From: an uncultured Eubacteriales bacterium
Lineage (GTDB): Bacteria; Bacillota; Clostridia; Christensenellales; Aristaeellaceae
Direction of reading: 5' to 3'
Assembly (NCBI GenBank): GCA_902793325.1
Contig: CADBCY010000037.1
Location: forward strand, 1-35,517
Length of the DNA: 35,517 bases
Both the position numbers and the translations under genes were made by a program. A model generated the notes under the pieces. That model made no database searches. It worked only from the letters and a program-made list of their open reading frames with translations, and was not told the origin of the DNA. Every line of letters begins with the position of its first letter. Position 1 is the first letter of the stretch. This document shows, piece after piece, positions 28,655 through 35,517 of the stretch.

Positions 28655-28721
28655 CGGATTTTGAAACTCACTCTAGTATGCGCCGCGGGCTGGGAAATCA
28701 TTCCGGTTCCAAAACGGCAAA

Positions 28722-28749
28722 GCCCGCGCGGTCCGAAGGCCGCGCGGGC
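28722..28749 (-). terminator. GC hairpin beside repeat copy A, terminator-like on the minus strand
   Basis: Arms GCCCGCGCGG (28722-28731) and CCGCGCGGGC (28740-28749). On the minus strand the loop region reads CCTTCGGA, containing a UUCG-type turn, and is followed by TTTGCCGTTTT. It would end the transcript of the 86-aa gene, but now lies 200 bases past its stop because the 122-bp repeat and a second copy of the same stem intervene. Confidence 0.65.
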
Positions 28750-28750
28750 A

Positions 28751-28872
28751 CAGCATGTTGACGAAGTCGACATGCTGCAGAGCGGCGAGAAAGGCCGGCG
28801 CAAAGCTTCGAATTTCAATTCGAACCTTTGCGGTTTTCAGCTTCGCTGAAAACTGGAAATCCCTTCGGGATT
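28751..28872. repeat. 122-bp multi-hairpin dispersed repeat, copy A
   Basis: Matches copy B (35373-35494) at 119 of 122 positions, same orientation. It folds as consecutive hairpins: CAGCATGTTGAC / GTCGACATGCTG with GAA loop (12 bp, one T-G wobble); GCAAAGCTTCGAATT / AATTCGAACCTTTGC (14 of 15 paired); GTTTTCAGC / GCTGAAAAC with TTC loop; and AATCCC / GGGATT with TTC loop. It starts one base after a GC hairpin. No open frame or ribosome site is convincing. Together with flanking hairpins and the GH94 leader it fills the 332-base gap 28618-28949. Confidence 0.95.
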
Positions 28873-28901
28873 CGCGGTTGCGGCCTTTATCGGCGCTCTG
28901 A

Positions 28902-28925
28902 GCCCGCGCGGTAAACCGCGCGGGC
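28902..28925 (-). other. Second GC hairpin with the same stem, on the far side of repeat copy A
   Basis: Arms GCCCGCGCGG (28902-28911) and CCGCGCGGGC (28916-28925) around TAAA. The 10-bp stem is identical to that at 28722-28749; only the loop differs. It lies 24 bases after the stop of the 86-aa gene and has no T-run, so as it stands it is an incomplete terminator. Confidence 0.7.
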
Positions 28926-30650: not shown

Positions 30651-30746
30651 AACCATGATTGGAGGCTTTTCCGGGTATGGTCGCGGCGCGCGGGAAAAGG
30701 TGCAGATGTCCCGTCAGTTCACAGTCGCGGCGAATGATTTCCGATT

Positions 30747-30840
30747 GTAGAGTAGGAATGGCGCGTCAAGTACCGGCGGATGGGAGGTTGCCGCCGGGCG
30801 AAGGAGCGGTCGCTCCGCGATGCCATTATCGCATCCGCTA
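30747..30840 (+). ncRNA. THF (tetrahydrofolate) riboswitch aptamer
   Basis: Matches the THF-I class upstream of folT genes. Conserved segments in order: AGAGTAG, AATGGC pairing with GCCATT, GCGTCAAGT, a hairpin CCGGCGG / CCGCCGG whose loop carries GATGGGAGG, GCGAAGGAGC with hairpin GGAGC / GCTCC, and a 3' GCATCCGCT that can form the class pseudoknot with the GGATG loop. It lies in the leader of a folate-family ECF transporter gene and folC, the expected targets. Binding of reduced folates should reduce expression. Confidence 0.94.
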
Positions 30841-30893
30841 ACACAATCGCGCGGGAGGAAATGCGTCCGCCCGCAGAACCGTCGCATCGCTTC

Positions 30894-30922
30894 AACCTCC
30901 TCCACTTGAATGGAGGTTTTTT
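30894..30922 (+). terminator. Riboswitch expression platform: terminator that also hides the folT ribosome site
   Basis: AACCTCC (30894-30900) pairs with GGAGGTT (30912-30918), followed by T6 (30917-30922). The GGAGG of the 3' arm is also the ribosome site of folT, 7 bases before its ATG, so one hairpin could control both termination and initiation. An upstream GGGAGG (30853-30858) can pair with the same CCTCC arm and is a candidate antiterminator. Confidence 0.82.
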
Positions 30923-30923
30923 C

Positions 30924-31496
30924 ATGAAGAGATTTACCACCCGAATGCTGGTTTCCATGGCGCTGCTCTCCGCGCTGGAGGTCGTGCTGGCCCGCTTCAT
31001 CGTCCCCATGCCCAATCCCACCATGCGCTTTTCCATCGAGGCGGTGCCCATCGTGCTGGCGGGCTACCTGTTCGGTCCCGTCCCCGGCATGATCGTCGGC
31101 TTCGTGGGCGACTTCGTGGGCACGCTGTTCTCCGGCTACGGCTACAACCCGCTGTTCGCCGTGCCGCCGGTGCTCACCGGGCTGTGCGCGGGGCTGCTGC
31201 GCCACATCGTGGTGAAGAAGGCCAGCTTCCTGCGCATACTGCTCTCCTTCCTGCCCGCGGTGGTGCTGGGGAGCGTGCTCTGGCAGAGCTACTGGCTGTC
31301 CTTCATCTACGGCACGCGCAGCTTCGGCGGCTTCCTGGCCATGCGCAGCGTGCAGTTCGCCGTCACTACCATGGTGAACACGGCGGTGATCTTCGGCCTG
31401 TTCAAGACGAAGGTATTCGAGAGCCTGCGGCTCTGGCCGCCCATCTCCCCCAAGGCGGAGGGCCCGGACGGCCACGCCGTGTCCGCCCCGCACTGA
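30924..31496 (+). CDS. folT: Folate-specific ECF transporter S component FolT
   Basis: 190-aa membrane protein that binds folate and joins the shared ECF energising module (EcfA, EcfA', EcfT, not in this window). About six hydrophobic helices; the N-terminus KRFTTRMLVSMALLSALEVV and the segment VPIVLAGYLFGPVPGMIVGFVGDFVGTL are typical of S components, including the conserved Gly-rich ligand/EcfT-contact region. The substrate assignment rests on the THF riboswitch directly upstream and folC directly downstream. ATG 30924 is chosen because it follows the regulated GGAGG; the longer frame would start inside the riboswitch. It is 22 bases upstream of folC and cotranscribed. Confidence 0.92.
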   Translation: MKRFTTRMLVSMALLSALEVVLARFIVPMPNPTMRFSIEAVPIVLAGYLFGPVPGMIVGFVGDFVGTLFSGYGYNPLFAVPPVLTGLCAGLLRHIVVKKASFLRILLSFLPAVVLGSVLWQSYWLSFIYGTRSFGGFLAMRSVQFAVTTMVNTAVIFGLFKTKVFESLRLWPPISPKAEGPDGHAVSAPH

Positions 31497-31518: not shown

Positions 31519-32805
31519 ATGATGACCATAGAAGAGGCGCTGCAATACATCCACAACGTATCCTGGGTGGGCACGATCCCCGGGCTGGAGCGCGAGATCG
31601 AGCTGCTGGACCGCATCGGCAATCCCCAGGACCATTTGAAGTTCGTGCACATCGCGGGCACCAACGGCAAGGGCTCCACCGCCGCCATGCTCGCCAGCGT
31701 GCTGGCGAAGGCGGGCTACCGCACGGGCCTGTACACCTCGCCCTACATCATCCGCTTCAACGAGCGCATCCAGGTGAACGGGGAGCAGATCCCCGACGAG
31801 GCCGTGTGCGCGCTGACGGAGATGATCCGCCCCCATGCCGAAGCCATGGCGGACCATCCCTCCGAGTTTGAGATCGACACCGCCATCGCCATGGAGTACT
31901 ACCGCCGCGAAAAGTGCGACATCGTGGTGCTGGAGGTGGGCATGGGCGGCGAGTGGGACGCCACCAACGTGGTCCGCAACACCGAGGCCGCGGTGCTGGT
32001 GAACATCGGCCTGGACCACACGCAGGTGCTGGGCGCCACGCTGTGGGAGATCGCCAGGACCAAGTCCGGCATCGTCAAGCCGGGCCGCCCCGTGGTGCTC
32101 TACCAGCAGGCGCAGCGCTCCGTGGAGATGGTGGTCGAGGAGGTCTGCCGCGAGCTGTGCGCGCCGCTGTGCCGCGTGGACTTCTCCGCCCTCAAGCCGC
32201 TCTCCGACGGCCTCGACGGGCAGCGCTTCGACTGGAAGGATCTGAAGGATCTGCGCATCCCGCTGCTCGGCGCGCACCAGCTCCGCAACGCCTGCACCGC
32301 GCTCACCACGCTGGCGGTGCTCCGGGGCCGGGGCTGGAACATCCCGGACGAGGCCATTCGCGAAGGGCTCGCCACGGTGACGTGGCCGGGGCGCTTCCAA
32401 CGGTTGTGCGACGACCCGCTGTTCATCGTGGACGGCGGCCACAACCCCCAATGCCTGGAGGCGCTGCAGGACGCCCTGCGCAGATACCTGCCGGGGCGGC
32501 GCATCGTGTTCCTGAACGGCTGCATGGCCGACAAGGACTACGGCGACATGTTCAACTACCTGCTGCCCTTCTCCGACGAATTCGTCACCGTGACGCCCCG
32601 CAACCCGCGCGCCCTGCCCGCGGCGGACCTGGCCGCCTGGCTGACCGGGCGCGGCGAGCGCGCCGTGGCCTGCGACACGGTGGCGGCGGGCGTGCGCAAG
32701 GCCATCGAGCTGGCCGGCGACGACGGCGTGGTCTGCGCCTGCGGGAGCCTGTACATGATCGGCGACATCGTCGCCGCGCTGGACGAATGGAAGGCGGAGC
32801 GCTGA
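31519..32805 (+). CDS. folC: Bifunctional folylpolyglutamate synthase / dihydrofolate synthase
   Basis: 428-aa ATP-dependent ligase of the Mur ligase superfamily. It adds glutamate to dihydropteroate and then extends the gamma-glutamyl tail of folates, trapping them in the cell. P-loop GTNGKGST (47-54), folate/omega-loop TSPYIIRFNERI, EVGMGGEWDATNV (usually GLGGRLDATN; here a Glu-Trp variant), NIGLDHTQVLG with metal His, GAHQLRNACTAL, WPGRFQ and VDGGHNPQ are all visible. There is no strong ribosome site, so it may depend on reading from folT. Together with FolT it forms a salvage-and-retain unit under THF control, supplying one-carbon units for example to fmt and purine synthesis. Confidence 0.96.
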   Translation: MMTIEEALQYIHNVSWVGTIPGLEREIELLDRIGNPQDHLKFVHIAGTNGKGSTAAMLASVLAKAGYRTGLYTSPYIIRFNERIQVNGEQIPDEAVCALTEMIRPHAEAMADHPSEFEIDTAIAMEYYRREKCDIVVLEVGMGGEWDATNVVRNTEAAVLVNIGLDHTQVLGATLWEIARTKSGIVKPGRPVVLYQQAQRSVEMVVEEVCRELCAPLCRVDFSALKPLSDGLDGQRFDWKDLKDLRIPLLGAHQLRNACTALTTLAVLRGRGWNIPDEAIREGLATVTWPGRFQRLCDDPLFIVDGGHNPQCLEALQDALRRYLPGRRIVFLNGCMADKDYGDMFNYLLPFSDEFVTVTPRNPRALPAADLAAWLTGRGERAVACDTVAAGVRKAIELAGDDGVVCACGSLYMIGDIVAALDEWKAER

Positions 32806-35326: not shown

Positions 35327-35341
35327 TCGCCTCCGCACAAC

Positions 35342-35371
35342 GCGGGCGGCCTCCCCAGGGAGGCCGCCCGC
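35342..35371 (+). terminator. GC hairpin after nfnB, T-run missing
   Basis: Perfect 14-bp stem GCGGGCGGCCTCCC (35342-35355) / GGGAGGCCGCCCGC (35358-35371) with a two-base loop, 15 bases after the stop. This is a terminator-grade stem, but the expected T-run is absent: one base later the 122-bp repeat begins. Confidence 0.72.
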
Positions 35372-35372
35372 T

Positions 35373-35494
35373 CAGCATGTTGACGAAGTCGACATGCTGC
35401 AGAGCGATGAGAAAGGCGGGCGCAAAGCTTCGAATTTCAATTCGAACCTTTGCGGTTTTCAGCTTCGCTGAAAACTGGAAATCCCTTCGGGATT
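35373..35494. repeat. 122-bp multi-hairpin dispersed repeat, copy B
   Basis: Same element as at 28751-28872, three mismatches, all in the short segment between the first and second hairpins (about 35407-35417), so every stem is conserved. The last stem is longer here: GGAAATCCC / GGGATTTCC with TTC loop (9 bp). It starts one base after the nfnB GC hairpin, as copy A does after its own, different, GC hairpin. The remaining 23 bases to the window end show nothing further. Confidence 0.95.
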
Positions 35495-35517
35495 TCCACC
35501 TCTGCAAGGCAAGGAAG

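Follow-up and report, generated by a model that had tools for sequence, protein, structure and literature searches.

The window, i.e., the whole stretch of 35,517 nucleotides analyzed here, is contig C37 of a 3.23-Mb draft genome (G000, 95% complete) and contains two copies of a palindromic repeat, at positions 28751-28872 and 35373-35494. Realignment of the two segments confirmed that they are identical at 119 of 122 bases, as given in the original prediction, with the differences located at positions 28785, 28786, and 28796. The hairpins described there fold as stated, with the plus-strand RNA of the 122-bp segment yielding a z-score of -6.4 in comparison to 200 shuffled sequences, none of which was as stable, and the DNA fold of 35373-35497 yielding a z-score of -8.7. 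No gene was found within the element, which bears out the earlier view that it contains no credible one, and it can be described as a dispersed, non-coding structured element. Unrelated to it, the window also harbors a THF riboswitch (RF01831, 69.7 bits) at 30746-30843 on the plus strand, overlapping the start of an open reading frame (30780-31496) with an ECF-transporter S-component domain, the true start of which probably lies later. The next gene (31519-32805) encodes Mur-ligase domains and its product is perhaps a folate synthase.

The 122 bp had been taken as the unit of this repeat, but they turned out to be only the left part of a larger element, which in copy 1 extends to its right end at position 28900 (Table 1). 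The supposedly single-stranded link between the first two stems, in which all three differences fall, is actually an inner copy of the terminal repeat. When the 150 bp are folded, it pairs with the right end, a segment not included in the 122 bp, to whose reverse complement it is identical at 18 of 20 positions. Copy 2 runs off the contig. An exact duplicate of the hairpin preceding it is located near the start of another contig of the same genome (G000:C6), following a right half-element that is probably the missing half of copy 2.

Table 1. Features of the two element copies and of the hairpins flanking them (positions refer to the window).
Feature	Position	Strand	Basis or remark
Left one of the two target hairpin copies, 29 bp, resembling an intrinsic terminator	28721..28749		Aligned with 28901-28925; stem arms alike, loops differ
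Whole element, copy 1 (L272), internally deleted MITE form of 150 bp	28751..28900	+	Tips alike at 10 of 18: left CAGCATGTTGACGAAGTC, right CAGAGCGCCGATAAAGGC (as reverse complement)
H1, left-end palindrome, its left arm being the left terminal repeat	28751..28777	+	Same kind of palindrome at IS1182-type left ends
Inner terminal-repeat copy, base-paired to 28881-28900	28778..28797	+	Fold of 28751-28900
Internal hairpin A	28798..28832	+	Fold
Internal hairpin B	28833..28853	+	Fold
Internal hairpin C, truncated in its 3′ arm by the deletion inside copy 1	28855..28872	+	L001 compared with L003 and L009
Right terminal inverted repeat	28881..28900	-	
Right one of the two target hairpin copies, 25 bp	28901..28925		
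Left target hairpin of copy 2, 33 bp	35340..35372		Same 33 bp behind the right half-element at the start of G000:C6 (L050)
Copy 2 (L003/L273), truncated to its left part by the contig end at 35517	35373..35517	+	

The repeat is also not confined to two copies. A BLAST search of the own genome with the 122 bp yielded 29 matches and a search with the 3′ part of another copy 44 matches, which together mark 52 distinct places with pieces of the element, many of them fragments and one of them probably the other half of copy 2. When a nearly complete copy was used as the query against 60 genomes, with at most 12 candidates scored per genome, 15 matched, namely the own genome, 13 of its own genus, and one of another genus with a weak match. 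An exact-pattern scan of genome contigs retrieved three contigs of uncultured Clostridiales MAGs, in keeping with contigs of three of the matching genomes (G004, G018, and G026); going by their RUG names, these MAGs are presumably from the rumen. Searches of phages and plasmids with positions 163-460 of one locus (L009) gave no match, and neither did an exact-pattern scan of viral contigs. All genomes used in this study are drafts, some of them incomplete.

Of 85 copies of the element, 41 have a length of 199 bp and 13 of 200 bp, so that 54 represent the usual full-length form. Its left tip sits inside the 27-bp palindrome H1, followed by the second copy of the repeat, and its terminal inverted repeats of approximately 18 bp are imperfect, with the consensus of the relatives (left CAGGATGTTGACAAAGTC, right CAGACCGCTGACAAAGCC; counted by eye) being alike at 13 of 18 positions and the window copy at 10 of 18. 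A longer form of 282 bp, represented by five copies in two relatives, has the extra A-B-C hairpins that are seen in the window. Shorter forms with deletions occur as well, among them copy 1 of the window with its 150 bp. This A-B-C block of about 83 bp is present or absent at one internal point in three species (G000, G015, and G023; loci L196, L198, L199, L208, and L263 as well as the long forms of the own genome), and since it is the same point in all three, two subfamilies appear to coexist. BOX elements are modular as well. Additionally, one genome (G019) contains 41 right-end matches without any left-end H1 match at one mismatch, and a locus therein (L068) carries a diverged H1; this genome may possess a separate subfamily. 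By its short length, its many copies, the lack of a transposase gene, its terminal inverted repeats, and the target-site duplication described below, the element is a MITE.

Insertion sites were analyzed in ten genomes picked for having matches, in which 104 left ends were listed with at most one mismatch, a threshold by which old copies are under-represented. For 100 of these the sequence was fetched (left out were G015:C95, G023:C20, G023:C34, and G000:C34). A right end was present in 85 and missing in 15, and after two more had been dropped on account of short flanks or length, 83 copies were testable. Among them, 71 showed a direct repeat with a score of at least 14 in both flanks, in comparison to 8 of 1170 pairings of flanks taken from different copies of the same genome. 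Such duplications were present in eight of nine genomes (10/12 in G000, 2/5 in G002, 1/1 in G004, 23/24 in G008, 15/17 in G015, 0/3 in G018, 12/13 in G023, 6/6 in G024, and 2/2 in G026). The repeats are 15 to 41 bp long, with a median of 27 bp, and begin exactly at the right boundary of the element in 58 and end exactly at the left boundary in 43 of the 71 cases; the remaining boundaries are off by 1-2 nt, except for two that are off by 6-7 nt on the left. Twelve of the 83 copies lacked a duplication, and some of these are chance matches of the right end (e.g., L213, L266, and L274).

In 66 of the 71 cases the repeat consists of a single hairpin closing at most 2 nt from both of its ends, as opposed to 16 of 71 after shuffling of the letters. 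One copy counted among the 71 (L243) is flanked by an AT-rich repeat without a hairpin. The two flanking hairpins are identical in 39 of the 71 copies, and in pairs of equal length differences occur at 26 of 1394 stem positions versus 34 of 394 other positions. Fewer differences in the stems are expected if both flanking copies stay under selection as hairpins; in copy 1, too, the stem arms are alike and the loops differ. Two MITE copies (L208 and L250) have unlike hairpins on their two sides. That the target is a hairpin, and that this hairpin is duplicated, can be read directly from the sequences of the flanks.

In the original prediction the repeat was likened to the REP/BIME family, i.e., to palindromic repeats moved by a RAYT (IS200/IS605-type Y1) transposase, and it is indeed short, intergenic, palindromic, and dispersed. 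However, its ends are defined and carry terminal inverted repeats, most of the testable copies are flanked by long target duplications, and the tips of the element resemble those of an IS1182-type DDE element (see below). Neither Y1 elements nor REP/BIME sequences are known to duplicate their target. A REP/BIME-type origin is hence extremely unlikely.

Forty-two copies with at least 700 bp on each side were inspected for their gene context. According to heuristic gene calls, 20 of them lie between convergent genes, 20 between genes of the same direction, and one between divergent genes, with one case being undetermined. The prevalence of convergent and same-direction contexts fits the interpretation of the target hairpins as intrinsic terminators. 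The orientation of the element relative to its neighboring genes showed no clear bias (7 versus 13 of the 20 codirectional sites).

An occupied site could be compared with its empty counterparts behind rnpB. In the own genome, one copy (L005) is located 3′ of this gene in the arrangement hairpin-element-hairpin. An rnpB search gave matches in 27 of 28 genomes of the genus, 26 of which were readable (the one in G015 is cut), and the region behind the gene was read over 330 bp per genome, or 267 bp in G007. The element was found behind rnpB in the own genome only, with the 25 other readable genomes being free of it. At these 25 sites a strict script detected an uninterrupted stem in 18, located at most 14 nt away in 15; the remaining sites show interrupted hairpins when inspected by eye.

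Conservation of the structure was examined on an alignment (A1) of 58 out of 64 copies of 190-205 bp from nine genomes, with six left out by hand (L192, L195, L210, L234, L239, and L251). RNAalifold predicted 56 consensus pairs, 24 of which show changes on both sides that keep the pair, so that compensatory changes of the kind proposed as a check in the original prediction do occur. This covariation supports conserved stems, and it would be compatible with selection on an RNA, with selection on folded DNA, and with repair that restores inverted repeats. In 57 of the 58 copies the plus strand is predicted to fold more stably, by 16.6 kcal/mol on average, whereas the wobbles in the 42 pairs common to the folds of both strands are nearly even (36 versus 29). 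The earlier hint at a transcribed orientation, which had been based on a wobble pair, is weakly supported, with the plus strand being more stable but no clear wobble bias being seen. At gathering score, no Rfam family was assigned to the element in the window and in four loci with copies, in agreement with the failure to match it to a named family before. A relaxed Rfam scan of six loci gave only a sub-threshold rli61 match in L221 (26.6 bits, cut-off 50).

The covarying pairs, the more stable plus strand, and the position of the copies directly behind genes would also be compatible with a structured non-coding RNA or a 3′-UTR regulatory module that is kept for a host function, with its mobility being old or incidental. 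Several observations speak against this explanation: more than half of the duplications, spread over many different sites, are still identical, only 1 of 26 genomes carries the element at the rnpB site, and many copies are truncated. Furthermore, template-switch repair of inverted repeats is an established mechanism that can itself yield covariation and could explain the one seen here. We therefore regard a retained host RNA as unlikely.

A candidate for the mobilizing enzyme emerged from a right-end pattern match outside the MITEs (L122 in G024), which adjoins an IS1182-family transposase gene. The encoded protein (L303, G024:C20) scored 432 bits against the IS1182 model NF033551 (cut-off 270) and contains the Pfam domain DDE_Tnp_1_6. 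A second copy was found in G023 (L304, G023:C52), its protein being alike at 428 of 466 positions (92% identity). The insertion sequences measure 1545 and 1543 bp, respectively. On the left, both end in a palindrome similar to H1 and agree with the right tip of the MITE at 16 of 18 positions; on the right, the agreement with this tip is 15 and 14 of 18. In 15 other loci obtained with transposase queries, the best 18-mer matched at 12-14 of 18 positions; since this background reaches 14, the matches of the right ends alone are weak. A more distant IS1182-type relative with the same kind of left end exists in G015. Hairpins abut both ends of the two insertion sequences, but in each case the two hairpins differ from each other, so that neither copy shows a duplication. 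These unlike hairpins, and those around the MITE copies L208 and L250, could be due to recombination between copies or to a bridging insertion.

A protein search of the own genome revealed no such transposase. At the start of one of its contigs (G000:C12:1-246; L333, L353) a fragment resembling an IS1182 transposase was detected with 30 bits, and this contig may break inside a repeated insertion sequence. The 99% complete genome G019, despite its 41 right-end matches, contained no IS1182 match, 20 other orphan right-end regions contained no autonomous copy, and no resemblance was noticed between the interior of the MITE and that of the insertion sequence. Other IS1182-family genes of the genus (L322-L324) were dismissed as candidates, as they have different ends, with a GGGGCTGTCTCA-like sequence downstream. 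A left and a right end located 2.2 kb apart on G008:C54 were considered as a single element but belong to two different ones, with a gene between them that is presumably glnS. Based on the similarity of the ends, the 1.54-kb IS1182-family insertion sequences are the likely source of the MITE. The tips of the element hence come close to a known type of insertion-sequence end, a match that had been named as evidence against a new family, although the insertion sequence in question was detected in this analysis and is not among the named ones; an Rfam counterpart was not found.

Besides IS1182, the genus was searched for transposases of the IS30 family, another group of DDE enzymes from which a MITE with hairpin-duplicating targets could derive. 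The precedent is IS1630 of Mycoplasma fermentans, which reportedly encodes an IS30-type transposase, targets inverted repeats, and duplicates them at variable length. With the IS30 model, 6 of 28 genomes of the genus gave matches, four of which exceeded the cut-off, and the own genome gave none. At the best two loci (L177 and L178) no MITE-like tips were present, the closest 18-mer matching the MITE tip at 12 of 18 positions. An IS30 transposase was consequently rejected as mobilizer, and an origin from this or another DDE family with such targets is considered very unlikely in comparison to one from the IS1182 family.

Some members of the IS1182 family are known to recognize stem-loops. IS1272 and TnSha1 of staphylococci are reported to target stem-loops that differ in sequence and include several confirmed terminators; part or all of the stem-loop is lost upon insertion and no target duplication arises, with some older copies of IS1272 having been assigned to non-palindromic targets (PMC4923244, PMC5678879). 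The MITE shares the stem-loop targets with these elements, which possess an IS1182-family transposase and terminal repeats of approximately 16 bp (PMC5678879, PMC4923244). In contrast to them, it is 200 bp long and the whole hairpin is duplicated instead of deleted, as far as the latter are described in the passages available (PMC5678879). One of these reports draws, solely as a hypothetical pathway b, a joining at the 5′ feet by which the stem-loop would be duplicated in full (PMC5678879), and the flanks of the MITE copies show the outcome of this pathway as it is set out there.

Other small or related elements resemble the MITE in part. ISCaa15 of Amoebophilus, also of the IS1182 family, has terminal repeats of 18 bp as well, but two of its copies have direct repeats of 4 bp and the consulted part of the report does not mention hairpin duplication (PMC3196728). 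MITEAba12, to judge from the part of its description that was available, is likewise small, non-autonomous, and tied to an insertion sequence by common terminal repeats and target duplications, yet it differs in its 9-bp duplications, AT-rich sites, and weak secondary structure (PMC6382973). The pneumococcal BOX, RUP, and SPRITE repeats, compared by description, are small and intergenic too, with no mention of terminator-hairpin duplication in the passages at hand (PMC10969869). In the literature covered, i.e., titles, beginnings of abstracts, and passages, with subscription journals mostly outside, no hairpin duplication by an IS1182-type element or its MITE was found. For the IS1182 family, ISfinder gives duplications of 0-60 bp, which is why long duplications as such may already be known.

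Taken together, the element is very probably a MITE that is moved by an IS1182-family transposase and targets terminator-like hairpins, usually duplicating them as a whole. The hairpin target and its duplication are visible in the flanks; for the enzyme and the cutting steps we infer the following course from the similar ends. An IS1182-family DDE transposase would move the MITE in trans and would recognize the stem-loop by its shape, probably extruded from the DNA. The ends of the element would then be joined at the two feet of the target stem, on opposite strands, and repair would copy the stem-loop onto both sides. Such an insertion would be nearly harmless, because genes on both sides would retain a terminator hairpin, and copies could accumulate behind genes. 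A possible, albeit doubtful, extension is a structure-for-structure transposition, in which an IS1182-type enzyme would handle its own palindromic left end and the target alike as folded hairpins and would join the two foot to foot, irrespective of the target sequence, and thereby copy the stem-loop. If this holds true, the covarying stems would be kept because the folded single strand or cruciform is the substrate, and a single family would span both hairpin replacement, as in IS1272, and hairpin duplication, as in the MITE.

Eight of nine draft genomes together provide 71 natural insertions with a duplicated target that is nearly always a whole hairpin of variable length and sequence, and such a set can show how a DDE transposase recognizes the shape of DNA rather than its sequence, and whether one family both destroys and duplicates its target. 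For the annotation of these genomes, the element explains tandem terminators and some of the contig breaks. It also suggests a safe route by which a repeat can spread, namely by landing on terminators and leaving a hairpin on each side.
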